Of a DNA stretch of 54,187 bases, positions 29,311-54,187 are shown piece after piece. The translations under genes and the position numbers were made by a program. This DNA is from Planctomycetia bacterium. Its GTDB lineage: Bacteria > Planctomycetota > Planctomycetia > Pirellulales > JALHLM01. The notes under the pieces are model-generated. The model saw only the letters and a program-made list of their open reading frames with translations, was not told where the DNA came from and did no database searches. Positions within the stretch are counted from its first letter, which is position 1. Every line of letters begins with the position of its first letter. Location: positions 1-54,187 of the forward strand of contig JAWXBP010000445.1 in assembly GCA_034440135.1 (NCBI GenBank). The letters are read 5' to 3'.

Positions 29311-29566
29311 GTGGCACGGTCGGGAGACCATTGGCATCTACACAACTTTTTCCGGGCATCCGGAAGTAACCACGAAAAACACGAAAGGCACGAACGTCTC
29401 GTCGAGTATTGGATTGAGCTGGAAGTGCCAAAGGGACGTCGGCTAGTCGATCTGCCTTCAATTGGCCGCCGCAAGTTTGCCAAACATCCCAAACTTTCCT
29501 GCCTTTCGTGCTTTTCGTGGTTCCTTCCGAGCTGTGTAGATACCAATGGTCGGGAGACCGTGCCAC
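29311..29566. repeat. 256 bp composite inverted-repeat element, copy 1
   Basis: Outer arms GTGGCACGGTC...GACCATTGG.ATCTACACA pair imperfectly with the 3' end, and an inner 155 bp unit (29368-29522) begins AACCACGAAAAACACGAAAG and ends with the near-complement. The first 165 bp match 54023-54187 without gaps (7 differences by my count). No transposase or convincing protein gene is inside; the whole 29181-29588 interval is gene-free. Confidence 0.85.
29368..29522 (+). repeat. CACGAA inverted-repeat element, copy 1 (155 bp)
   Basis: Terminal arms of about 27 bp made of CACGAA units; core contains GGACGTCGG at offset 67-75 and GGCCGCC at offset 97-103. It aligns without gaps to the copy at 39464-39618. 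Confidence 0.85.
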
Positions 29567-29588: not shown

Positions 29589-31511
29589 TCATCGACTAGC
29601 GGCCGCCAAGCCTTGCTGTGAGGGGACTTCGAACGTGTTCCAAAGGTTTCTTACAGTTTCGAGGCATTCGTTGGTGGGAAGCTGCCGCGCGTAGAGACTA
29701 CGGGCCAGCCAGCCGGCGAGGCGGTTCGCGTCTTGGCCGAGCTCAGGGAATTGCCGCGAGGCGCGGGCGGCGAATTCGAGCGGCGTTTCGTCCGGCAGCT
29801 TCGGGGCGCCTTGCTCGTAGGACCAGGCGGCCAGGGCCGCGAAGGAGTATTTGACCAGTTCGTCCGGCGAAGCCCGTTGCGCGCGGCCGTCCCGGAAGGG
29901 GTTCGCAAAGCTGGCGAACGGACGCGAAAGCTCTTTGGGCGCGACCGCTTCTTCGACCACTTTCGCGCGCGGCGGAAAAGCAAGTTGCCAGATGCCGCGC
30001 CAGATTTCGGCGATCTCGCGGAGGAAGGCGATGATCTGATGGCGGAACACGACGGCGAGAATTAGAGCGGCGACGATAATGGCGATCCAGATGAGCGGGC
30101 GTAGTACCGAACCGAGCGCGCCCAATGGATTCGGCGGCGTCGGCGGGTGCGCAGGCGGCGTTGGTGGCGGGCTACCCTGCTGCCCGGATTGCGCGGGATT
30201 TTGCTTTGACGGAGAATTGGCGTCGTCGGAGGACTTGGACTGATCCTGATCCTGCTGCTGTTGCTGCTGTTGCTGCTGTTGCTGCTGGTCGGACGACGAG
30301 GCGTCATCCGATGAATCAGATGGTTCGTTGCCGGACTGTTGTGAGTCGGAATTGCCGCTCTGTTCGCCAGCGACTTCGCTTGATGATCCCGATGCCTCGC
30401 TTGCTTCGCTCTGTTGGTCGGTGGAGGCTTCGCCTTGCTTGTCGGGCTGGCCGCCGGGTTCTTGCGAGTTGTTTTCCGAGGGTTGTTGGTCCTCTGATTT
30501 CTCTCCCTCCGAGGTGCGCGACGCGTCGGGATCGTCGGATTCGGCGCCGTCGAACTTGACGGGCGCGACCTTCGATGCTTCGCGCTCCGGTGAGCCCAGG
30601 ACGCGGTCGCGGAACGCGACGGATAAATCGCTTTGCGCGCCGGGGAGCGGGAGCAACATGCCACCGATCAAGAGCGCCGCGATGAGCGCCGCCGAGACGC
30701 CAACCCAGGCCGAGGTCATGGCAGCGGGCATTTCTAGCGTGCGGCGGCGCAAATAGCGGCGCATGCCGAGAAAGCTGGTGATGGCCAGGAGCGCCAGGCC
30801 GGCCATCAGATAAATGGTCAGCCAGCGGAAGGCCGAAGATTGACGCCCATCATCGCGCGCCGGAATCAGCCATTGGCCAAACCCGAACAGCGGCAGCGCG
30901 GCCAGCGAGAAGTACAACACCGACAAGCCTGGCGCGTGAGCGCGGGGCTCCAGGTCGGTGATGGCGCTCCAAGCGCGCTTCCACCAGGGGGCGAGCTTGC
31001 GCCGCGCGACCGCCTCGGCGCGAAAGGTTTCTTCCGAGAGGGGATCATAGACTTTTTCCGCGGCGCTCCGCGTGCCGATACGAAGATCTTTTAAGCGCTC
31101 GTCTTGGCCGGCGGTTTCCAACAGGCCGGCGGCGCTGGGATCGATCGTTTCGTCGATGAACGTGCAGTTCCAAGTGAGCTTATGGGCGCACCACCAGACG
31201 ACGCCGATCAAGAGGCAAGCGATCAAGGCGTTGCTCACCAGCGTGATCAAGACCACGATCGTGGCGAGCGCCAGCCCCAGGCCGAGAAACGACGCGTGCG
31301 CCACGCCTTGCGTAATGCTGACGCGAGCCAGCATCACGGAGCCGAACACAAACCAGAACAGCACCCAGCGAATCACGCCGGGGAATTCGCCCGCATAGCC
31401 AACGTCGGAGAGAAAGAACACCAGGCTACCGACGAGCAGCATGATCAACACCGGGGCCACGGCGACCGCCAGATAGTCGGCCCAGGTCATTTCGTTCCGC
31501 GTGCCGCGCAT
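29589..31511 (-). CDS. DUF4129-type membrane protein with polyglutamine linker
   Basis: About 640 residues from the ATG at 31511; frame open to 31538. Several N-terminal membrane helices (about residues 12-35, 45-110, 195-215, 230-250, 265-290), then a long Ser/Glu/Asp/Gln-rich disordered stretch (about 310-465) including 12 consecutive glutamines, another helix at about 472-492 and a C-terminal domain of about 100 residues with LVKYSFAALAAWSYEQG and ETPLEFAARASRQFPELGQ, the pattern of DUF4129. In many bacteria such domains follow transglutaminase-like proteins; none is adjacent here. Function unknown. Confidence 0.8.
   Translation of the reverse strand: MRGTRNEMTWADYLAVAVAPVLIMLLVGSLVFFLSDVGYAGEFPGVIRWVLFWFVFGSVMLARVSITQGVAHASFLGLGLALATIVVLITLVSNALIACLLIGVVWWCAHKLTWNCTFIDETIDPSAAGLLETAGQDERLKDLRIGTRSAAEKVYDPLSEETFRAEAVARRKLAPWWKRAWSAITDLEPRAHAPGLSVLYFSLAALPLFGFGQWLIPARDDGRQSSAFRWLTIYLMAGLALLAITSFLGMRRYLRRRTLEMPAAMTSAWVGVSAALIAALLIGGMLLPLPGAQSDLSVAFRDRVLGSPEREASKVAPVKFDGAESDDPDASRTSEGEKSEDQQPSENNSQEPGGQPDKQGEASTDQQSEASEASGSSSEVAGEQSGNSDSQQSGNEPSDSSDDASSSDQQQQQQQQQQQQDQDQSKSSDDANSPSKQNPAQSGQQGSPPPTPPAHPPTPPNPLGALGSVLRPLIWIAIIVAALILAVVFRHQIIAFLREIAEIWRGIWQLAFPPRAKVVEEAVAPKELSRPFASFANPFRDGRAQRASPDELVKYSFAALAAWSYEQGAPKLPDETPLEFAARASRQFPELGQDANRLAGWLARSLYARQLPTNECLETVRNLWNTFEVPSQQGLAAASR
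30252..30287 (-). repeat. trinucleotide CAG/CAA tract encoding 12 glutamines
   Basis: 36 nt run of CTG CTG TTG-type triplets on the plus strand, inside the DUF4129 gene. The regular mixture (CTG CTG TTG in register) indicates slippage expansion of a 9 nt unit. Confidence 0.9.
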
Positions 31512-31553
31512 GGAGTGTTTCCAACAGCCCGATCTCAAGCCCGCCCCTACTCA

Positions 31554-34557: not shown

Positions 34558-34667
34558 GGAGGGCGCCGCACTTTACCTGATGGGTGGGCCGGCGATATCT
34601 TAACACGTGCCGGACGGCATTTCGCCCCCCTGGCCGCGCCACCGCGATTCACGAAGGAACTCTCAAC

Positions 34668-35480
34668 ATGTTGCGCAGCCGAAATGTGGAAAACTTGTCG
34701 ACAGTTCCGCTGGGCCGTGCGGCTTTGGTTTTTTTGCTGCTGTGCGGTGCGGCCACCTGGGCCCAGGCGCAAGAACGCCCTGAGGAAAAGCCTGATGTGA
34801 AGAGCCTGATTTTGCCGCCCGGCGACACCGAAGGCTTGAAGCTACTGGAACCGGAAAGCCAGGTCTGGCTCGATCAGGAAAAGAAGCGGCTGGTGATGGC
34901 GGGACGGATTTGTCTGCGCGAGGGGCAATTGGAAATGTTTGCCTGCCTGGCCGGCACGAAGGAACACGAATCGGTCGTGGCCGTGGAGGCGAAGGCCTAT
35001 GTCGTGCATGCGGCGCTGTTGGCCTGCGGCGCCGAGGCCGGTAAGCCGGTGCAGTTTCAGCCAACGTTTCGGCCGGCGTCGGGGACGGAGGTGGCCATCG
35101 ACATTTATTGGCGCGACAAACAAGGAGAACTGCAGACGGCCAAAGCGCAAGACTGGGTTCGCGATATTCGTACGCAAAAGGAAATGACCCAGAACTGGGT
35201 GTTCGCCGGGAGCGGCTTCTGGACCGACGACAAGACAGGACAGAAATTCTATCTGGCCGAGGACGGCGATTTTATTTGCGTCTCCAACTTCGCGAGCGCG
35301 ATGTTGGACCTGCCGACGGAGAGTTCCCAGTCGGCGGGCTCACTGCTGTTCGAGGCGTTCAAGGATCGCATTCCGGAGCAAGGGACGCCGGTGACGATGG
35401 TGCTGACGCCGAAAGTAGAGAAGAATAAGGACGCCGCGAAGAAGCCGGTGAAGAAGCCCGTGACGAAACCGGCTTCGTAA
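34668..35480 (+). CDS. YdjY-domain exported protein
   Basis: 270 residues from the ATG at 34668, with AAGGA about 9 nt upstream; the frame is open to 34584. Signal peptide ALVFLLLCGAATWAQAQ. The mature protein has the YdjY pattern: VWLDQEKKRLVMAGRICLRE, LEMFACLAGTKEHESVVAV, VHAALLACGAEAGKPVQF, and GSGFWTDDKTGQKFYLAEDG followed by DFICVSNFASAMLDLP. Lys/Pro-rich tail. The domain is frequent in planctomycetes and found near redox proteins in some genomes; it is convergent with the multiheme cytochrome here. Confidence 0.88.
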   Translation: MLRSRNVENLSTVPLGRAALVFLLLCGAATWAQAQERPEEKPDVKSLILPPGDTEGLKLLEPESQVWLDQEKKRLVMAGRICLREGQLEMFACLAGTKEHESVVAVEAKAYVVHAALLACGAEAGKPVQFQPTFRPASGTEVAIDIYWRDKQGELQTAKAQDWVRDIRTQKEMTQNWVFAGSGFWTDDKTGQKFYLAEDGDFICVSNFASAMLDLPTESSQSAGSLLFEAFKDRIPEQGTPVTMVLTPKVEKNKDAAKKPVKKPVTKPAS

Positions 35481-35499: not shown

Positions 35500-38400
35500 C
35501 TATCGCTTCGGTTCGAGATAGCGATACTGCGGATCGCTGGGATCGTTCACGACGGTCCAGAGTTTGCCGTTGCGGAGGTAGAGCTTTCTTTGCTCTGCGA
35601 AATTCAATGGTCGCGCACCGACGCGGCCGAAGACGGCGATTTGTTGGCCGGATTCATCCACCGCGCGATCGCGATCCACCGCTTCGGCGATGCAGAGCGC
35701 ATGTCCTTCGTGCGGCAGGCGGCGCGTGGCGACCAATGTCGGCACCGGGCGCGGGCTGAAGCCCATCATGCCGGGCGTTTCCGGCGACGTGAGTTGCACG
35801 ACGCGAAGGCCATTGCGCCCGTCGGCGAGATACGCGAATTCGCTGTTGTTAGTGATGCCTAGTTTCACGTCGTGCAGGTCGTTGATGCAGCCGTCGGCGT
35901 TGTAGAACTGCTCGACGCGGGGCGCGGCGGGGTTTTCCACATCGACGATGATCAGTCCGTGCTCGCCGCCGGAGATGTAGGCATACGTCCGTGCCACGTA
36001 GATGTTCTTGGCTTCTGGTAGCGGAAGCGTGGTAACGGGGATCGGGCGAGTGAGGTCGGTGACGTCGAACACGCGCAGGCCAACCTTATCGGTGACGAAG
36101 GCGTAACGGAACTGCACCGCCACGGCCGTGGGTTGATCGGCGAATTGCTGGTCCAGCACGGCGACGACCGTGGGGCATTGGCTATCCGCGATCGAAACCA
36201 CGACGACGCCGACATCACAGCAAATGTAGGCGTACTCGCCCGCGATGGTGATGTTCCGCGCGCCGTTGAGAATGCCGTCGGGATTGAAGGTAGATTCGCG
36301 GCGGAGGAAGTTGTTCGTGGGATTGCCGTCCAGCAGGGTGCCGACGCCGACGATGATCAGGCCCTCGTATTTGTCGGTGACATAGATGTTGCCGTAGTGG
36401 CCGGCGATCGGCGTTTCCCGATTTTCAGGATGTTGGATACGCGTGGGATCGGGGGCGATCGTCGTCGGCGCGACGACCGACGTCGCATACTGCGTGCGGA
36501 CATAGAGGCGTTGTCCTAGCGGCGAAACCGGCGCGGTGGTGATCCGTTCGGAGAAGGCCTTGTGGTCGATGAAGGCCACGTCGAATACGCGCAGGCCTCC
36601 TTCGCCGCAGGCCGCGTAGAGGAACTCGCCGCGCATTTGCAGCGCGAGGATTTCCGGCTTCGAGAGCGGGCGCAATAGCGTGTCGCCGATGTCCTTGCCG
36701 GGATGCTCGTGGGCGTGCTCCAATTCCGCGCCACGCTCGACGTGTTCTCGGTGATTGTCCGGATAGGCCATCCGGTGCAACGTGCTGCCGATCACGGCCT
36801 GGGGTTCTTCGCGTTCGGTGACGACGACGGCCTCGAAGCCGTGCTCGCCGGCGCCGACGTAACAATAGCGGCCCATGAAGTTGACGAAGTTCGTGCCTTG
36901 CATGAGGAGCTGCGCCATGATCGCGTTATTGTTGTTCTGGCGATCGAGATGGCAGTCGTTGCACAGCTTGGTTTCGCCCGCGCCGCGGACGGTGTGCGGG
37001 ACGTTCGTGCTGAAGGCGATGCCGCTCAGGCCGTCTCCAGAGATGGTTTGCTGCTGGACGTAAATCGATTCGCGATTGCCGTTGTAAGAGCCTACATGCA
37101 CCGCGCAGCTGGACCGCGCCGGGCCGATCTTGTTGCCGGTCACGTCGCCGTCCTTGGCGAGCATGTAGACTTCGTCGCGCAATGTTTGGAAGTTGTACGA
37201 CACATAGTTCCGCGCCACGTCCCCTTCGCCGTGCAGGAGCGGCGACTTGACATTCGCCTTTTGCGGCAGATGGCAGCCGTAGCAACTCGGGTTCCAAGAG
37301 CTATGGCAGGCGATGCAGTTCATCGAGTTGTTGTCGTGCGCACAATGCTCGCCGGGTTTCGGCTCGCCGTAGACCATCTGGCCTTGGGCGTCGAACCGCA
37401 CGGTCTTCGCCAAGAGCGCTTTAGCGTTGAAATCCTTGCTGCCGGGCGTGATGGTGTCGCGGACCTGGGTGATTTCCCAGGACAGTGTTTCGTCGACCAT
37501 CGAGTTTTGCACGATGACATTGCCGCGATCCTCGAAGCGCGGCTTGCCGGAGGGCGTGCGGAATTTGCGCAAATTCGTGCCCCCTTCCGGCGCAGCGGGG
37601 CCGGAAGTGATCAGGTTCGCGCGGCCGTTGACCGTGCCATGGCAATCGATGCAGGCGATTTCGATCGCGGCGCGGACCTCGCCGTAGAGCTTCGTGTTGC
37701 CATGTACATCCTGGTGGAAATGGCAATCGACGCAGTGCATGCCTTTTTCGAGGTGGATATCCATCAGATGAACCGGCACGCCGTCGCGGGCTTTGCCGCA
37801 TTGCTGTTCGACGCGCGTCGGCGGCGCCATCGCCGCTTGCAAGAGCTCCGGCTCGTGCGGCGGGACGACTTCTTCCTTGTGATCCAAGAGATTGCCGCGA
37901 CGATCTTTCTTGAACACCGCGCGGAAAATCCAGCCGTGCCCGTGGAAATCGGCGAACTGCGTGTGACGTAGTTGGGGATTCAATTCGCTCGATCGTTCAA
38001 GGAAACCGGGGTCAGACCAGTTGCCGCGCAGCGACGCTTCGTCCGGATTGTTCATCGACGCTTGGACTTGTTCCTCGGCGCTGGGGTTCTTTTGCCGCGC
38101 CGGGTACATCAATTCGCCGTCAATTTCATTGTCCCACCAGGTGAAGCCAAGGTAGCTGTTCATCACGTTCGTGCCGGGATGCACATGACAGGTAATACAC
38201 TGGCTGGTCGGGACGCCGGTTGTGAACTTGTGATCGATGGGATGGCCGCGCTCGCCTTTGGGGATCATCGGATCGGGATTGCAACTCATGCCTAAGTGCC
38301 CGGCGCGAGCATACGGCCCGGAATGGACGGGCGAGCGATCGTTGGCGTAGACCATGTGGCAGGCCGTGCAACCGCTGGAGCGATAGTCGCCGGGATGGTC

Positions 38401-39399
38401 GTTGGTGCCGAGAAAATTCAGCGTGGGATCGAGCAGCCGCGTCTTTTGCAAGCCGATGAACACGGGATCGGTGCGATTCTCCGTGCCCAGGCCACGGATA
38501 CTCAGTCGCTCGCGCGGACGCCCGGGTTCTTCGAGCCGCTCGGGCAAGCCGGTTTCGGCGCGGAAGCGCCCGCCGCGCTCGAAGATGCGCAGCACGTTGC
38601 CAGGCTGCGTAATTTCATAGCGCGGCAGCGGATCGAGATATGGGAGGATCCCCTTGCGCGCGGTTTCCTCCGGCGTCGGCGAAGGGACGGTTTGCAGCCG
38701 CTGCGCGACCCCGTTCATGCTGTAGCTTTCGCCGTAGCGCGGCCATTTGTGGGGAACTGAGCCGTTGTTGTAGAGCGCGGCGCCCCAGAGCATCGCGCCA
38801 TGTGTCATCATGCTCTTGCGCGTGGCGAGCGTTTCCTTGGGATGGCAATTCGTCGTACCGCAACTCAGGTGCGCGATTCGCAAGTCGCCGGGATTGACGA
38901 ACCGCACGAATTCCGGGCGCTCGTGATTCAGCAGCGTGTAGGAGCGGACCGGATTGCCGGACGTGACCCAGGCGTCGGGGAACAGTGGGAGCACGTGCGC
39001 GGCTGCTTTCGACGTGGCCATGGGATCGCCGCCGTGGCAGTCGATGCAGCCGAGCTTGACGGTACGCTTACTATGCGGGTCGCCCGTGTTCTCGTGACAT
39101 TGAATGCAGCCCCAGCTTTTTTCGTGTGCTTCGTCGGGAGTTTGCCGGGCGAGATCGATGCCCTGTAGCTCCGGCGGCAAGGGATAGGCTTCGCAATCTT
39201 CGAGACCCGGCGTATAGGTGGCGCGCGGGGCTGCCGGCAACCTAACAGGCGCATTGTCGCGCGACTCGAACGTCGTCGGGCGAACGCGCGGATCGCGCTG
39301 GACCGGTTCGCGTCCCCAGACGACGACGGTCGCCAGCGACGCCACGGTCGCCAACAAGGCGATGTTTCTTAGTCGAGTCGTTCTTGATGGAGCGTTCAT
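35500..39399 (-). CDS. exported multiheme cytochrome c fused to LVIVD repeat region
   Basis: 1299 residues with an N-terminal hydrophobic signal or anchor (NIALLATVASLATVVVWG). Nine CXXCH heme sites are visible at about residues 98, 118, 344, 401, 556, 583, 695, 706 and 813, plus a CX4CH (CGTTNCH) at 180-186, so up to ten hemes. From about residue 845 to the end it switches to LVIVD-type repeats (EGGLRVFDVAFID, DKYEGLIIVGVG, VGLRVFDVTDL, GEHGLIIVDVENP), expected to form a beta-propeller. This should be an extracytoplasmic electron carrier. It lies downstream of an outer-membrane barrel gene, separated by a 323 bp repeat block. Substrate or acceptor unknown. Confidence 0.92.
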   Translation of the reverse strand: MNAPSRTTRLRNIALLATVASLATVVVWGREPVQRDPRVRPTTFESRDNAPVRLPAAPRATYTPGLEDCEAYPLPPELQGIDLARQTPDEAHEKSWGCIQCHENTGDPHSKRTVKLGCIDCHGGDPMATSKAAAHVLPLFPDAWVTSGNPVRSYTLLNHERPEFVRFVNPGDLRIAHLSCGTTNCHPKETLATRKSMMTHGAMLWGAALYNNGSVPHKWPRYGESYSMNGVAQRLQTVPSPTPEETARKGILPYLDPLPRYEITQPGNVLRIFERGGRFRAETGLPERLEEPGRPRERLSIRGLGTENRTDPVFIGLQKTRLLDPTLNFLGTNDHPGDYRSSGCTACHMVYANDRSPVHSGPYARAGHLGMSCNPDPMIPKGERGHPIDHKFTTGVPTSQCITCHVHPGTNVMNSYLGFTWWDNEIDGELMYPARQKNPSAEEQVQASMNNPDEASLRGNWSDPGFLERSSELNPQLRHTQFADFHGHGWIFRAVFKKDRRGNLLDHKEEVVPPHEPELLQAAMAPPTRVEQQCGKARDGVPVHLMDIHLEKGMHCVDCHFHQDVHGNTKLYGEVRAAIEIACIDCHGTVNGRANLITSGPAAPEGGTNLRKFRTPSGKPRFEDRGNVIVQNSMVDETLSWEITQVRDTITPGSKDFNAKALLAKTVRFDAQGQMVYGEPKPGEHCAHDNNSMNCIACHSSWNPSCYGCHLPQKANVKSPLLHGEGDVARNYVSYNFQTLRDEVYMLAKDGDVTGNKIGPARSSCAVHVGSYNGNRESIYVQQQTISGDGLSGIAFSTNVPHTVRGAGETKLCNDCHLDRQNNNNAIMAQLLMQGTNFVNFMGRYCYVGAGEHGFEAVVVTEREEPQAVIGSTLHRMAYPDNHREHVERGAELEHAHEHPGKDIGDTLLRPLSKPEILALQMRGEFLYAACGEGGLRVFDVAFIDHKAFSERITTAPVSPLGQRLYVRTQYATSVVAPTTIAPDPTRIQHPENRETPIAGHYGNIYVTDKYEGLIIVGVGTLLDGNPTNNFLRRESTFNPDGILNGARNITIAGEYAYICCDVGVVVVSIADSQCPTVVAVLDQQFADQPTAVAVQFRYAFVTDKVGLRVFDVTDLTRPIPVTTLPLPEAKNIYVARTYAYISGGEHGLIIVDVENPAAPRVEQFYNADGCINDLHDVKLGITNNSEFAYLADGRNGLRVVQLTSPETPGMMGFSPRPVPTLVATRRLPHEGHALCIAEAVDRDRAVDESGQQIAVFGRVGARPLNFAEQRKLYLRNGKLWTVVNDPSDPQYRYLEPKR

Positions 39400-39403
39400 A
39401 TTT

Positions 39404-39715
39404 CTGTAGCCGACGTCTGTGACTTTGTTGTTCTACGAATCTTTTCCGTCCATGGGAGATGGCAACCACGAACGACACGAAAAGCACGAACGACTTGGAG
39501 AGAATCGAATTGCGCTTCAAGGACTTACTGGACGTCGGTTCGGCAGTTGACAAGGAAAGGGCCGCCATGGCTTTCCCAGTCAGCTCACATTTTCGTGCCT
39601 TTCGTGTTTTTCGTGGTTCCTTCTGGGATGTGTAGAGCACCGAGGTCTGTGACCTCTTCAGCGCCTGGTTGGGTGATGCATACTACGCAACCGGCCTCAC
39701 AGAGGCCGGCTACAG
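39404..39715. repeat. nested inverted repeats between barrel and cytochrome genes
   Basis: Outer arms 39404-39423 (CTGTAGCCGACGTCTGTGAC) and 39696-39715 (complement of CTGTAGCCGGCCTCTGTGAG) enclose the 155 bp CACGAA element at 39464-39618. A further GAGGTCTGTGACCTC palindrome follows the element. No gene is seen in this 323 bp gap. Confidence 0.75.
39464..39618 (+). repeat. CACGAA inverted-repeat element, copy 2 (155 bp)
   Basis: Same length and ends as 29368-29522, with a diverged core that still carries GGACGTCGG at offset 67-75. Lies inside the outer GTAGCCG arms. Confidence 0.85.
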
Positions 39716-39722
39716 AAGGCGG

Positions 39723-41867
39723 TCAATAGGTTAGCGCGATGTCCATGAAACTTGCAAAGAGTCCGTCGACATCGCCGCGCAAGGGGTTGTACAAATCCTC
39801 GAAGCCGGGGCCTGGCAGCAATCCGGAGACGCCGCCGATGATCAGGATGTTGTTGTTCAACAGCGGGCGCCATTCGAGCCCGAGGCTCAGGTCCGTGCCG
39901 ATTTCCGTATCGATGTGATCTTGAAACGTAAATTGCTGGAGGACTTCGGTTTCCTGAAACCAGAGGAAGTTCACGTTCGAGATCATCTTCAGTTTCGGCG
40001 TCAGATCGGCGTCGAAACCGAGGTTGCACAGGTACAAGCCGGGATTCACGAAATTGGCTTGTCCCTGCGTTTTGCTGGAACGCAGGTTGGGAACGATACT
40101 GAGCCGATTGACTAAGTTGACGCCGAAGAGTTGGATCGCCTGGCGGTTCCAGTAGCTGAACTCGCCGCCGGCAAAGTTGGGATTGTCGAAGATGGCGTCG
40201 AAGCCTTCCGCCTCGCCGTCAAAGACGTCGTTGTCGCCAGACGCCCAAAACGCGGACGCGCGGAAGCGGGCCCAATCGCGGTCGTAGGAGAGTTCCAGCG
40301 CCGCCATTTGCGCGTTGATGTCTTGCTTCTGGCCGGCGATGGGATTCATCGAATCTTGCCCGAGCGCCCAATAGAATGCATGGCTGACGTTGACGCGATT
40401 GATATGGCCGTTGCCGGCCCAGCCGAGGTAATAGGCGCTGACTTCGTGTTTTTGGTACACGCCGGCGGGATCGGGGCGCACGAGGAAATCGTTGTCGTCG
40501 AACTTCTCGCTCGGCTTGTCGCGGTTGTAGTGAAAGCTGAGCTGCGTGGTGTAGCCGGGCCAAATGCAGTCCTGGCGATAGTAGTTGGCGATGACGACGT
40601 TTTGATGCCGGTCGTCAAAGGTGTTGAGCTGGCTATTGGTGTCTTTTTCGGTTTCATCGAACCAGATCAGGTTGAACTGGTCGCGGTTCGACAGACGCGT
40701 GCCGAACAAGCGCACGCCGCGGTTGATATCGGAGAAGACGAAGCCGCGGAAGTCGCTGACGAATGGCTGCGAGCCGGCGCGAACCGACATGAAGTCATAG
40801 TTCGGGCTCAGGTCGGCAAGTTTGGTTTCGACGAACCATTCCTCGAGCGCCCAATCGTCGCGGCCGCGGAAGCGCCCGTTGCGGACGTCGGGGTCGGTGA
40901 CCGCGAGTTCATTGGCATCGAGATAGTTGGCGTTGAAGACCGGCGTCAGCTTGACTTGCCAGTCCATCGGCTTGAACGAGGCGTCGCCATGGAACACGCT
41001 GACCGAGAGACGCGTGTACTGCTGGAAGAAGAACTGGTTCGGGTTGCCGAAGAATTCTTCCTGAAACGGATCGTGCGTGCTCTCGAACGGCGTCGTCGCG
41101 GTCGGCACCTGGCGGCGTTCCAGCAGGGTGAGGCTGGCTGCCGTGATGTTCATGAAGGTGTGTTGACCCCAGAGCGGGTAGTCTCCCTTCATCACGTTTT
41201 GGTTGTACGGATCCCACCAGTTTCCTTCCTTGTACGGATAGTCGTCGCCGAGCGGATGCCCGCGGCCGTAGCGATCCCAAGGCATGAACCCGGCGCGCCA
41301 GCGGTCTTCGACCGGGACGAAATGGCTTGATTGTTGGTACTCGCTCGGCAACACGCCGGACGGCCCGGTATAGCCTGGGGGCAATTCGCTCGGCGTGCGG
41401 AACAGCGAGGTCTCGAAGTCGTCGACGGGGGGCGTGATCGGTTCAAGCAGCGGCGCGGCGTCCGGCGCGCGCAGCCAAGTTGGACCGCCGGGCGCTATCG
41501 ATGCGGTTGGCGGCGGCAATGCCTCGATGGCCGCGACTGGAATGACTTGAGGATCGAAGATCGGCGTGACAACCGGCAATCGCTCGACACTTTGCGACTC
41601 AGCGAGTTGCTCCGTGACTGGGACGGAGATTACTGCCGGAGTTTCCAACAATGTTGGCTCAGTGACGACCCGTTCCAGCGAGTCGGTGTTCTCCGCTTCC
41701 GATGAACTGTCGTTTTGCGTGACAAAGATGCGGTCGAGCCAGCGTCGTGACGAGGTTTCCGCCGCGGTGGCTGCGTGCTGCGTGGTCAACCACAGCGCGC
41801 AGGCGAACGCGCATCGCCAATTGGAGCGATGTGGACTAACGCCATGGTTGGTCGGTCGCGCGTTCAC
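39723..41867 (-). CDS. outer-membrane beta-barrel protein, putative porin partner of the multiheme cytochrome
   Basis: About 714 residues from a GTG at 41867; the frame extends to a TTG at 41945, but that would put 46 residues before the hydrophobic CAFACALWLTTQHAATAAE signal. After a proline-rich linker (about 40-180), the rest has alternating aromatic beta strands (FFFQQYTRLSVSVFHGD, WALEEWFVETKLADL, QFNLIWFDETEKD, LGLEWRPLLNNN) and ends in LTY, a C-terminal aromatic as in BAM-inserted barrels. It also has some likeness to alginate-export-type porins. Upstream of the cytochrome on the same strand; a porin-cytochrome pair is inferred. Confidence 0.78.
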   Translation of the reverse strand: MNARPTNHGVSPHRSNWRCAFACALWLTTQHAATAAETSSRRWLDRIFVTQNDSSSEAENTDSLERVVTEPTLLETPAVISVPVTEQLAESQSVERLPVVTPIFDPQVIPVAAIEALPPPTASIAPGGPTWLRAPDAAPLLEPITPPVDDFETSLFRTPSELPPGYTGPSGVLPSEYQQSSHFVPVEDRWRAGFMPWDRYGRGHPLGDDYPYKEGNWWDPYNQNVMKGDYPLWGQHTFMNITAASLTLLERRQVPTATTPFESTHDPFQEEFFGNPNQFFFQQYTRLSVSVFHGDASFKPMDWQVKLTPVFNANYLDANELAVTDPDVRNGRFRGRDDWALEEWFVETKLADLSPNYDFMSVRAGSQPFVSDFRGFVFSDINRGVRLFGTRLSNRDQFNLIWFDETEKDTNSQLNTFDDRHQNVVIANYYRQDCIWPGYTTQLSFHYNRDKPSEKFDDNDFLVRPDPAGVYQKHEVSAYYLGWAGNGHINRVNVSHAFYWALGQDSMNPIAGQKQDINAQMAALELSYDRDWARFRASAFWASGDNDVFDGEAEGFDAIFDNPNFAGGEFSYWNRQAIQLFGVNLVNRLSIVPNLRSSKTQGQANFVNPGLYLCNLGFDADLTPKLKMISNVNFLWFQETEVLQQFTFQDHIDTEIGTDLSLGLEWRPLLNNNILIIGGVSGLLPGPGFEDLYNPLRGDVDGLFASFMDIALTY

Positions 41868-41920
41868 TTCTTGGCTGCGCTTCCTGGTGCGCGCAGGACG
41901 CCACCCCGTCGTGACGGCAT
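41864..41920 (-). CDS. possible 18-residue leader ORF coupled to the barrel gene
   Basis: ATG at 41920, preceded by a perfect AGGAGG (41936-41931) at 10 nt. It encodes MPSRRGGVLRAPGSAAKK and its TGA overlaps the proposed GTG of the barrel gene (GTGA). It could be a translational-coupling leader; it may equally be chance, with the AGGAGG serving an unidentified start in the longer frame. Confidence 0.25.
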   Translation of the reverse strand: MPSRRGGVLRAPGSAAKK

Positions 41921-42086
41921 ACGGCACAGTCCTCCTATCGGTCAAAGTCTGCTTAAACGTAAGAGTCGCCTGGAGTTTTCCTGTCTTCGCAACCGAGAAA
42001 GACGATGTAAGCAGAACTGTTTATCCAGCTCGCCAAGTTTGCTGGAGTTCTAGGAAGACAGCGCAAAATGCGCAGAGGGCCGCAGG

Positions 42087-44840
42087 ATGTGGTCAAAACT
42101 CTGGGCGAAGCAGCGGAAACGCCTGACGACTGCGCCGCGGCCGGCGCCGGAAAAGCTGGAAGCGCGCGCTTTGCTGGCGGCGTCCAGCATCGTGGCGGTG
42201 ACAGGCGACTGGTTGGGGAACGGCGTCGACACCGCGGGACTCTATAACCAAACGACGGGCGAGTTTTTCATTGCCACGGCGAATGCCACGTCGTTCGCGC
42301 AGATCTCCGGGAGCTACGGCCCGGACGGTAATAGCTGGATTCCGTTGGCGGGCGATTGGGACGGCGATGGCGACGACACGCTGGCGCTGTTCGATCCGGC
42401 GAGCGGGCGATTCTTTATCAAGAACGACCTCAGCTCGGGCGCTGCGGACCAGGTGTTTCGCTTTGGCCCCAGCGGCGCGAACTGGCAGCCGTTCGCCGGC
42501 GATTGGGACGGCAACGGCCAGGATTCCGTCGGTTTGTACGACGCCGCCAACGGCAAGTTCTATCTGAAGAATGCGCTCAGCGCCGGCCCTGCCGATATCA
42601 CGTTTCAATTCGGGCCTAAGCCGACGAATTGGCGGCCCATTGCCGGCGACTGGGACGGGAACAATGTCGATGGCGTGGGGCTCTACGATGGCGCGCAAGG
42701 CCGCGTGTATTTGCGAAATGCGTTGAGCAATGGTCCGGCGGACACCGTGTTTTCGTTGGGGCCGAGCCCCGCGAATTGGCAGCCGCTCGCCGGGGACTGG
42801 GACGGCAACAACACGGAAACAGTCGGACTGTATAATCCGGCGTCGGATAAGTTCTTTCTCCGCAACACCAACACCAGCGGTCCGGCGGACAGCGTGTTCT
42901 ATGTGACGCCGGCGCTCAACAACATTGCGCCCGAGGCGCTGGCGCCACTGACGGCCAGCATCACGGCCGCGCAACTAACGGCGCCGGAGGTCACGCAGTT
43001 GCTCGCCCGCGCCGCGGCGGCCACGGCCAGCGAAGACTACGTCATCGCCATCGTCGATCGCCAGGGGCACATTCTGGGCGTGCGCGTTGAGCAAAATGTA
43101 TTGAATACGTTCGCTGGTCGCGACGACGAGCTGTACTTCGCGATTGATGGCGCCATCGCCAAAGCCCGCACGGCGGCATTCTTCGCGAACGGCGACGCCA
43201 CTTCCGGTAACGCCACGCCGCTAACATCAAGAACCATTCGATTTATCAGCCAGTCGACGATCACCGAACGCGAGGTCGAAGGGAATCCGAATAGCCTCGA
43301 CCCTTTGGTGCGCGGGCCAGGATTCGTCGCGCCGATCGGACTGGGCGGTCATTTTCCGCCGGAGATTCAGCACACGCCGCCGGTCGATTTGTTCGGCATC
43401 GAACACACGAATCGTGATAGCCTCGTGCATCCGGGGCCGGACGGCATCAAGGGAACCGCGGACGATATCAATCTCGCCTCGCGCTTCAATGTCGATCCCG
43501 CCTTCATCCCGACAGGGCAAGGTATCTTCGCGCCGGAGTCGTATGGATTCGTCACAGGACTGATGCCCGAAGCGCAAAGCCGGGGCATCGCCACGTTGCC
43601 GGGCGGGATTCCGATTTTCCGCGATTCCGCCGACGCGGACGCTTTCGGCGACACGCTCGTCGGCGGCATCGGCGTGTTCTTTCCCGGCGTGGATGGATAC
43701 GCCACGCACGAACAGAACTTTATTCCCGGCGTCGGGCAGACCGAGGCCCAGCGGACCAATGCGCCGCGAGTATTGGAAGCGGAGTTCATTGCACTTTCGG
43801 CGATCGGCGGTAGTCGCAAAGCGGGCGTGCGCGTGGATACGCTCGACGGCATCGCGGCGATTCCGAGCATCGACTTGCCCTTCGGGCGGATCGATCTGGT
43901 CGGCATCACGCTCGAAACCGTGGGGCCGAATCCGCAAGGCTTGGAGCAACTCGTCGCATTCGGACGCACGCTCGGCGCGGGCAGCAGTGCGAGCGGGGCG
44001 GACCAGCAGGTTAACGCCGGCGGCGATCTGGCGATCGCTGGCCAAGCGGTGCCGCAAGGATGGTTAGTGTTGCCGCGCGCCGGCGGTAATCTCTCAGCGG
44101 CCGACGTGCAAGGAATCATCGATAACGCAGTCGATGAAGCACTGCGCGTGCGCGCGGCGATTCGTTTACCGCTGGGCAGTCGCACGAAGATGGTGCTGTC
44201 GGTCACGGATACGGATGGCAATGTGCTGGGGCTGTTCCGGATGCCCGACGCGACGTATTTTTCGATTGACGTGGCGGTCGCCAAGGCCCGCAATGTTTCG
44301 TACTATTCCGATCCATTGGCGATCCTCGACATCGATCGCGTGGACGGCAACGGGGACGGGATCCCCGACGTGCCGCGCGGGACCGCGATGACGAATCGCA
44401 CGTTCCGGTTCCTGGCGGAACCGCGATTCCCGTCCGGCGTGGATGGCACTACCGCCGGGCCGTTCTCGACGCTGCTGACGCCGGGCGTAAATCCGTTGAC
44501 TGCGGAGAACGTCAATCAGGCCGCGCCGCCGGCGAACACCGCGTTCACCACGGCGTTGGGCTTCGACGCGTTCACACCAGGACGCAATTTCCACGATCCG
44601 TCGAACATTGCCAACCAGAACGGCGTCGTGTTCTTCCCGGGCAGTGCGCCGCTCTATAGCGGGTCGACGCTAGTAGGCGGCTTCGGCGTCAGCGGCGACG
44701 GCGTCGATCAAGACGACACGGTAACGGCGTTCGGCGCATTCGGCTATGGACCGCCGACGAGCGTATTCCGCGCCGATCAAGTGCTGGTCCGCGGCGTGCG
44801 GTTGCCGTATCAGAAGTTTTTGCGCAATCCAGAGGCGTAA
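42087..44840 (+). CDS. surface protein with LEARALLAA tag, five GDWDG repeats and two HbpS/GlcG-like domains
   Basis: 917 residues. N-terminus is basic and then PEKLEARALLAAS, the planctomycete-specific sorting-type tag. Residues about 35-275 hold five repeats of about 48 residues with GDWDGDGDDTLALFDP-type loops (calcium-binding-like). Two regions, about 300-395 and 670-765, match the heme-binding HbpS/GlcG fold: VIAIVDRQGHILGVRV with YFAIDGAIAKARTAAFF, and VLSVTDTDGNVLGLFRM with YFSIDVAVAKARNVSYYS. Divergent from the barrel-cytochrome genes with 140-220 bp between them. Probably extracellular; heme binding is inference from the fold. Confidence 0.85.
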   Translation: MWSKLWAKQRKRLTTAPRPAPEKLEARALLAASSIVAVTGDWLGNGVDTAGLYNQTTGEFFIATANATSFAQISGSYGPDGNSWIPLAGDWDGDGDDTLALFDPASGRFFIKNDLSSGAADQVFRFGPSGANWQPFAGDWDGNGQDSVGLYDAANGKFYLKNALSAGPADITFQFGPKPTNWRPIAGDWDGNNVDGVGLYDGAQGRVYLRNALSNGPADTVFSLGPSPANWQPLAGDWDGNNTETVGLYNPASDKFFLRNTNTSGPADSVFYVTPALNNIAPEALAPLTASITAAQLTAPEVTQLLARAAAATASEDYVIAIVDRQGHILGVRVEQNVLNTFAGRDDELYFAIDGAIAKARTAAFFANGDATSGNATPLTSRTIRFISQSTITEREVEGNPNSLDPLVRGPGFVAPIGLGGHFPPEIQHTPPVDLFGIEHTNRDSLVHPGPDGIKGTADDINLASRFNVDPAFIPTGQGIFAPESYGFVTGLMPEAQSRGIATLPGGIPIFRDSADADAFGDTLVGGIGVFFPGVDGYATHEQNFIPGVGQTEAQRTNAPRVLEAEFIALSAIGGSRKAGVRVDTLDGIAAIPSIDLPFGRIDLVGITLETVGPNPQGLEQLVAFGRTLGAGSSASGADQQVNAGGDLAIAGQAVPQGWLVLPRAGGNLSAADVQGIIDNAVDEALRVRAAIRLPLGSRTKMVLSVTDTDGNVLGLFRMPDATYFSIDVAVAKARNVSYYSDPLAILDIDRVDGNGDGIPDVPRGTAMTNRTFRFLAEPRFPSGVDGTTAGPFSTLLTPGVNPLTAENVNQAAPPANTAFTTALGFDAFTPGRNFHDPSNIANQNGVVFFPGSAPLYSGSTLVGGFGVSGDGVDQDDTVTAFGAFGYGPPTSVFRADQVLVRGVRLPYQKFLRNPEA

Positions 44841-44877: not shown

Positions 44878-45031
44878 AACCACGAAAAGCACGAAAGACA
44901 CGAAAGAGTGGGGCGTCTCGTAGCGCCAATTTGATTAGTTCATCGCGAACTGCTGAGCTGGCCGTCCGTTGGTTCTTGCAGCCCATTCCCTGATCGAAGA
45001 ATTGTTCGTGCCTTTCGTGACTTTCGTGGTT
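44878..45031 (-). repeat. CACGAA inverted-repeat element, copy 3 (154 bp)
   Basis: AACCACGAAAAGCACGAAAG at one end and its near-complement at the other. Read on the minus strand the core aligns with the other copies (GCTGCAAGAA, GGACGGCC, GCAGTT). It fills most of the 263 bp gap between two plus-strand genes. Confidence 0.8.
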
Positions 45032-45103: not shown

Positions 45104-45478
45104 ATGCGACTTCCATTCATTGCGGCCCTCCTTTTTTTGTTGACGGCGGCATCGTCGCTGTGCTTCGCGCAGAAGCCGTGGAATCAGAAGCCGCGCGCCG
45201 AGAAGATTGAGGATGACTATGTTCGCGCCGGGAAGCCGTGGGAATTGCGGCGTGGGGCGCAACCGACGAACACGCCGGCGTATGACCATGGCTATGTCGG
45301 CGGCGGGGCGGCGTTTCGTTGGGGACAGCCGCGGACGTTGGAGGAAGGAACTTGGGGCCGCGACTACGTCGGCGTGCTCTATCCGCGCCGCGTGTGGCTC
45401 AACTGGTGGCACGGGACTCGCTATCAGGGCGGCACGGGCGGTTATGCGACCGACGGGCCGAAAGTGTTTGGCGAGTAG
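45104..45478 (+). CDS. small secreted hypothetical protein
   Basis: 124 residues from the ATG at 45104, though the frame is open through the repeat to 44969. Signal peptide LPFIAALLFLLTAASSLCFA, then a Trp/Tyr/Gly-rich mature part (GYVGGGAAFRWGQPRTLEEG, YPRRVWLNWWHGTRYQGG). Unrecognised family; the aromatic, glycine-rich composition suggests a small cell-envelope protein. Follows the HbpS-like gene on the same strand. Confidence 0.65.
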   Translation: MRLPFIAALLFLLTAASSLCFAQKPWNQKPRAEKIEDDYVRAGKPWELRRGAQPTNTPAYDHGYVGGGAAFRWGQPRTLEEGTWGRDYVGVLYPRRVWLNWWHGTRYQGGTGGYATDGPKVFGE

Positions 45479-54022: not shown

Positions 54023-54187
54023 GTGGCACGGTCGGGAGACCATTGGCATCTACACAACTTTTTCCGGGCATCCGGAAGGAACCACGAAAAACACGAAAGG
54101 CACGAAAGTCTTGTCGAGTATTGGATTGCGCTGGAAGTGCCAAAGGGACGTCGGCTAGGCGATCTGCCTTCAAATGGCCACCGCAAG
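54023..54187 (+). repeat. composite inverted-repeat element, copy 2 (truncated by window end)
   Basis: 165 bp collinear with 29311-29475, with 7 mismatches and no gaps by my count. Contains the GTGGCACGGTC outer arm and the CACGAA element's left arm and core; the 3' half lies beyond the window. Confidence 0.9.

Follow-up and report, generated by a model that had tools for sequence, protein, structure and literature searches.

The stretch analysed here in full, 54,187 nt of contig JAWXBP010000445.1 (assembly GCA_034440135.1) from a Planctomycetia bacterium and hereafter called the window, carries on its minus strand a gene for a putative outer-membrane beta-barrel protein followed, after 323 bp, by a gene for a large multiheme cytochrome that ends in a beta-propeller of LVIVD repeats (Table 1). 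We propose, with a probability of about 0.6, that the two proteins constitute the outer-membrane end of a chain that transfers electrons across the cell envelope and represent a new variant of the porin-cytochrome pairs. The parts of this system, their near-perfect co-occurrence, their clustering and two gene fusions, one joining a tetraheme domain to the barrel and one joining a cytochrome b to an iron-sulfur protein with cyclic-nucleotide-binding domains (Fe-S/cNMP protein), can be read from the sequences, and all functional statements are predictions.

Table 1. Features at the barrel-cytochrome locus, with positions in the window.
Feature	Position	Strand	Basis
Decaheme-LVIVD cytochrome, 1299 aa	35500..39399	-	Signal-peptide-like N-terminus, without a lipobox
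Ten-heme part, residues 98-817	36949..39108	-	Heme motif positions and local ExtM similarity
LVIVD beta-propeller, residues ~843-1244	35668..36873	-	Pfam LVIVD, model and fold match 1l0q
Outer-membrane beta-barrel protein with signal peptide	39723..41867	-	Model, fold matches, co-occurrence with cytochrome
Conserved pre-barrel segment (DRWRxGF... region), many invariant residues	41160..41381	-	Alignment; low model confidence
18-stranded barrel proper, model residues 201-677	39729..41159	-	Model and AlgE fold match
Repeat element with nested inverted repeats	39402..39717		Fills the gap between barrel and cytochrome genes
HbpS/GlcG-like secreted protein, divergent from barrel	42087..44840	+	Pfam HbpS-like, E 8.1e-14
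Small secreted protein	45104..45478	+	Open reading frame called from 44969, likely start ATG 45104

The cytochrome holds nine CXXCH motifs (residues 98, 118, 344, 401, 556, 583, 695, 706 and 813) and a single CX4CH motif (residue 180); in the window the ten motifs start at 39108, 39048, 38862 (the CX4CH), 38370, 38199, 37734, 37653, 37317, 37284 and 36963. This CXXCH count is far above chance: in 2000 shuffled versions of the protein, CXXCH occurred 0.03 times on average and never more than once. The 57 homologues compared retain every one of the ten motifs, the third with CX2CH spacing in part of them and CX4CH spacing in others, and at least 12 further histidines are invariant as well and usable as distal ligands. 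Since these would suffice as ligands, ten bis-histidine hemes are possible, which favours electron transfer over catalysis while leaving room for an enzyme. The C-terminal part matches Pfam LVIVD with E 1.8e-15 and 56.4 bits against a gathering cut-off of 20.2, and about 400 residues there are modelled as a beta-propeller (model residues ~754-1155, corresponding to 843-1244 of the protein), whose nearest fold is 1l0q (Z 23.9, root-mean-square deviation (rmsd) 2.1, 276 aligned). In the fold search with the cytochrome model, the match list was filled by matches to the propeller. The first-pass annotation, made from the sequence alone, had listed exactly these nine CXXCH sites and one CX4CH site and had predicted a propeller; the count is exact and exceeds the shuffled control, and the propeller was recovered by profile, model and fold search.

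The open reading frame of the barrel reaches a TTG at 41945 (39723-41945). An in-frame GTG at 41867 is likelier to be the start, because it stands just before the signal peptide. Modelled from an alignment of 36 sequences, the protein forms 18 long strands and ends in an aromatic residue, with a predicted local distance difference test (pLDDT) mostly of 70-95 from the first strand onward and weaker loops; the N-terminal 190 residues are low. Barrels from the PDB matched the model at Z 17-29, the strongest matches in the fold search being outer-membrane barrels, with AlgE (5d5d) as the best (Z 28.6, rmsd 2.9, 360 aligned, 14% identity). The failure of the barrel prediction, which the first-pass annotation had named as a refutation, was not seen. 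Among Pfam and NCBIfam families there was no match to the window barrel and no convincing NCBIfam model, and neither the barrel nor the cytochrome alignment had relatives by sequence among solved structures. The window barrel contains no CXXCH motif; hemes fused to the barrel were seen only in relatives.

We followed the pair through samples of genomes, many of them metagenome-assembled genomes (MAGs): 147 genomes of the order, 294 of the phylum Planctomycetota and 147 of one Acidobacteriota class, chosen via a single Acidobacteria MAG that bears relatives. In addition, a scan of named genomes found relatives encoded in 518 stretches; the 80 loci retained for comparison include cultured Singulisphaera, Tautonia, Gemmata and Rhodopirellula as well as MAGs labelled Acidobacteria and Rokubacteria; beyond the window's own sample, phylum and organism names are those of the sequence records. 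Cytochrome and barrel were detected in an identical set of genomes both in the phylum (32 of 294) and in the Acidobacteriota class (73 of 147), and the barrel gene lies less than 600 bp upstream of the cytochrome gene on the same strand in 26 of the 32 phylum positives. The pair thus shows one mark of porin-cytochrome conduits in the broad sense, the linkage of an outer-membrane barrel gene to the gene of a multiheme c-type cytochrome. The first-pass annotation had called for such a survey of planctomycete genomes and would have been contradicted by homologues that are never neighbours; the opposite was found. Within the order sample, the cytochrome or a piece of it was present in 17 of 147 genomes. 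Fifteen of them have substantial copies, some in pieces on different contigs or in different frames; G127 retains decayed remnants, and the G108 copy is a fragment at a contig end. Other matches in the order were weak and covered the propeller or part of the heme domain. The barrel was found in 16 of these genomes, all cytochrome-positive, and G108 alone lacked a detected barrel. In G127 the remnants of both genes lie on different contigs (L017 and L036), apparently reflecting joint loss. Moreover, all 22 genomes that were chosen for their cytochrome have the barrel, many of them without a barrel nearby, and the Acidobacteriota genome G436 carries two pairs, one whose barrel is fused to a tetraheme domain (L119) and one whose barrel is not (L163). 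On this presence and position evidence, we regard the genetic linkage of barrel and cytochrome as established. The distances in the barrel and cytochrome trees also correlate (r 0.87 overall, 0.80 within Planctomycetota); this was set aside as evidence of linkage, since shared descent accounts for it.

Many related loci add further redox genes, assigned to families by clustering and by purpose-built profiles made from few sequences. They encode a pair of c554-like multiheme cytochromes, a cytochrome with ten hemes, a membrane protein named cytochrome b and an Fe-S/cNMP protein that combines three cNMP-binding domains with 2Fe-2S and 4Fe-4S domains; an adenylate cyclase is often encoded there too. 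The name cytochrome b is putative, its sole support being a weak DUF4405 match. Eleven order genomes, each of them with the cytochrome, have full-length Fe-S/cNMP orthologues; four further cytochrome-positive genomes have diverged versions, and many other genomes of the order have partial relatives. The ten-heme protein is strongly matched in nine of these 11 genomes and partially in two; weak matches occur in several more order genomes, including a few cytochrome-negative ones. Examples of Fe-S/cNMP proteins at L084:14994-17546, L117:77-2428 and L129:8297-10474 carry several 4Fe-4S domains, and some of them 2Fe-2S as well. In the window's organism, contig C141 bears c554-like five- and four-heme genes and then a ten-heme gene cut by the contig end, while C63 starts with a six-heme piece of a ten-heme gene together with cytochrome b, and we infer from this split gene that the two contigs are continuous.

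The fusions provide a further line of evidence. In six Acidobacteriota loci (L119 and L164-L168) the barrel reading frame opens with a signal peptide, followed by a tetraheme domain upstream of the pre-barrel segment. This domain matches Pfam Cytochrom_CIII in L164 (E 6.4e-8, above the cut-off), and the barrel part of the fusion is 49% identical to the window barrel. Both trees unite the six loci in a single clade (support 1.0 and 0.95), so they count as one event; in these loci, 4-, 8- and 9-heme genes follow the decaheme gene. Because the tetraheme domain is fused to an orthologous barrel, a role of the barrel as a redox partner is strongly suggested. In four of the loci, L165-L168, the genes that follow the decaheme gene also include a reading frame with matches to the Fe-S/cNMP profile as well as to that of cytochrome b. 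A carboxypeptidase-regulatory-like domain takes the place of the tetraheme domain on at least one further Acidobacteriota barrel (L169). As a separate observation, an FHA domain is apparently joined to a seven-heme cytochrome at L168:3-1718, in a single reading frame that is truncated where the locus ends.

In the chain that we favour, the cytoplasmic Fe-S/cNMP protein would exchange electrons with the inner-membrane cytochrome b, and the ten-heme cytochrome, which has a membrane-anchor-like N-terminus, would carry them across the periplasm together with the c554-like four- and five-heme cytochromes. The decaheme domain, docked at the barrel, would then take them to or through the outer membrane, and the propeller may serve docking or substrate binding. 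The cell locations, the order and direction of transfer, the physical complex, the crossing of the outer membrane by way of the pair, the substrate and any regulation by cyclic nucleotides are all putative. An 18-stranded barrel is narrower than one of 26 strands, so that the decaheme domain is more likely docked or partly inserted than enclosed like MtrA; the whole domain probably cannot fit inside in the MtrA manner. As a tentative extension, which we hold with much less confidence, the system could be a cyclic-nucleotide-gated conduit widespread in Planctomycetota and Acidobacteriota, in which cyclic AMP from the neighbouring cyclase switches the flow from the Fe-S/cNMP protein via cytochrome b and the periplasmic cytochromes to the decaheme protein on its AlgE-like barrel.

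Several observations weigh against an outer-membrane electron-transfer stage. The pre-barrel region and parts of the cytochrome's heme domain are modelled at low confidence, the barrel is much narrower than MtrB, and in Planctomycetota it has no heme of its own. No lipobox or other lipoprotein anchor was recognised in the cytochrome sequence and no separate surface-anchored cytochrome in the window; at the relatives' loci, other multiheme genes do cluster. In six of the 32 phylum positives the pair is on different contigs (three) or further apart or divergent (three). The window's organism has the other genes of the chain on contigs apart from the pair, and its Fe-S/cNMP protein, on C170, is a shorter version without the N-terminal 2Fe-2S part. 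Finally, carriers include cultured strains of Singulisphaera, Tautonia and Rhodopirellula, which are aerobic heterotrophs.

Part of this evidence suits the main rival, in which the decaheme-LVIVD protein would act on a soluble substrate as a redox enzyme, in the periplasm or docked at the outer membrane. The barrel would be a selective pore that lets substrate in or product out, and the electrons would stay inside the outer membrane. An 18-stranded AlgE/OprD-like fold is of a size typical of substrate pores, no MtrB profile matches it, the cytochrome has no lipoprotein anchor, the carriers include several cultured strains from genera that are commonly called heterotrophs, and the HbpS-like partner encoded next to the barrel could be a ligand-binding protein. 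However, the tetraheme fusion to the orthologous barrel in the Acidobacteriota clade is hard to square with a mere substrate pore, and no open catalytic heme is evident, the spare invariant histidines being sufficient for ten bis-histidine hemes; we consider this explanation less likely, though a serious one. Much less probable is a barrel that acts as a non-conducting secretion or anchoring channel and places the decaheme-propeller protein on the surface as a terminal reductase or oxidase. Its fold does resemble that of the exporter AlgE, and docking might take place at the conserved pre-barrel segment, but a folded heme protein of about 1200 residues is too big for an 18-stranded barrel, heme attachment takes place in the periplasm ahead of export, and the tetraheme fusion speaks for a barrel that itself has a redox role. 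That the genes are chance neighbours without a functional link, as the six phylum positives without close adjacency and the barrel-less G108 fragment might suggest, is ruled out for practical purposes by the identical genome sets in two independent samples and by the joint decay in G127.

Besides the pair, the HbpS-like gene is part of the conserved surroundings, being present in 34 of the fetched loci. Strong orthologues were found in 15 of the 147 order genomes, all of them cytochrome-positive if the G108 fragment is counted; the positives without one are G076 and the decayed G127. The protein has N-terminal FG-GAP-like repeats (a weak match) and a LEARALLA-like motif near its start, and its orthologues mostly align only from residue ~290. 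The small secreted protein is conserved beside it in many loci. The repeat element in the gap between barrel and cytochrome is probably a lineage-specific insertion outside the electron-transfer system. A 27-base motif, TTCGTGCCTTTCGTGTTTTTCGTGGTT, has seven copies in the window, with none expected by chance; six of them form inverted pairs about 100 bases apart (29368-29522, 39464-39618 and 44878-45031, with the single copy at 54080-54106), and one pair sits inside the longer inverted repeats of the gap. These copies look like a small family of mobile or palindromic repeats. The opposite strand encodes, immediately downstream of the cytochrome gene, a secreted protein with a YdjY domain (34584-35480; NCBIfam E 1.5e-66), and positions 29589-31538 encode a membrane protein with a DUF4129 domain and a long low-complexity stretch that includes a glutamine run.

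If the favoured reading holds, an outer-membrane system for electron transfer, built on a barrel type that differs from MtrB and apparently undescribed in the searchable, open-licence literature, is present in about one tenth of the Planctomycetota genomes sampled and in half of those from one Acidobacteriota class. The presence of the pair in two large phyla points to a widespread and apparently undescribed movement of electrons across the cell envelope, through which groups often called heterotrophs might reach minerals, humics or partner cells; cultured strains that carry the pair exist, among them Singulisphaera sp. GP187, Tautonia sociabilis and Rhodopirellula maiorica (loci L044, L073 and L112). 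Since cNMP-binding and cyclase genes cluster with it, regulation of the electron flow is suggested, perhaps by cyclic nucleotides, and to our knowledge such regulation is not known from other conduits. Passages of PMC5877670, PMC5615132, PMC10553843, PMC11976967, PMC7096707, PMC12307469 and PMC3669403, all open-licence, do not describe the pairing of a decaheme-propeller protein with an 18-stranded barrel, and an earlier description elsewhere is possible. By title and abstract, the open-licence literature offered nothing relevant on LVIVD with cytochromes, nothing there joined planctomycetes, cytochromes, cyclic nucleotides and extracellular electron transfer, and what else it gave was on conduits in general or on metagenomes.

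Compared with known systems, the barrel shares its predicted 18-stranded fold with AlgE, as given above, and differs in its low identity, in the absence of alginate genes noticed nearby and in the lack of a match to the Alginate_exp profile at E up to 5 (Pfam; one of the 36 homologues matched at 0.0058). Some relatives resemble Cyc2 in fusing a c-type cytochrome domain N-terminally to an outer-membrane barrel. Cyc2 is described as monoheme, whereas the fused domain in Acidobacteriota is a tetraheme of class III and the window barrel is unfused and has a separate decaheme partner. The porin-multiheme clusters of Verrucomicrobia, for which the passages seen of He et al. 2017 (PMC5615132) report eight hemes and 20 or more transmembrane motifs, are likewise described as a proposed new porin-multiheme pair from the same superphylum.

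Closer still are the conduits of the MtrAB type, to which the first-pass annotation had likened the pair. As in MtrCAB/MtrAB and PioAB, a barrel gene is paired with a decaheme cytochrome gene and a crossing of the outer membrane is proposed. The conduit idea was strengthened by the linkage of the two genes, the redox chain in related loci and the tetraheme-barrel fusion, whereas membership of the MtrAB family in the strict sense was ruled out: the barrel matched no MtrB/PioB profile at E up to 1 (NCBIfam) or 5 (Pfam), the cytochrome matched no MtrA/DmsE profile at E up to 1 (NCBIfam), and the modelled barrel has 18 strands, against 26 in MtrB. MtrB is also absent from the fold matches of the barrel, which on its own proves nothing. 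Moreover, the window cytochrome is much larger than its MtrCAB counterpart and carries a propeller, and no MtrC-type surface cytochrome was recognised in the window. In a passage of PMC7096707, 28 strands are predicted for MtrB. The extHIJKLMNOPQS genes of Geobacter, in the passages seen of PMC5877670, comprise the barrel ExtI, the multiheme proteins ExtM and ExtN and the Rieske/cytochrome b proteins ExtO and ExtP; those passages mention no propeller for ExtM, and no rhodanese or Rieske partner was noticed at the window's system. Like that cluster, the related loci group a barrel with several multiheme cytochromes and an inner-membrane cytochrome b, and the heme domain of the window cytochrome is locally similar to ExtM around residues 546-593 (NCBIfam, E 1.2e-17), a local match of 63.4 bits that stays far below the curated cut-off of 800. 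Overall, the Geobacter ext clusters and MtrCAB are the nearest known systems.

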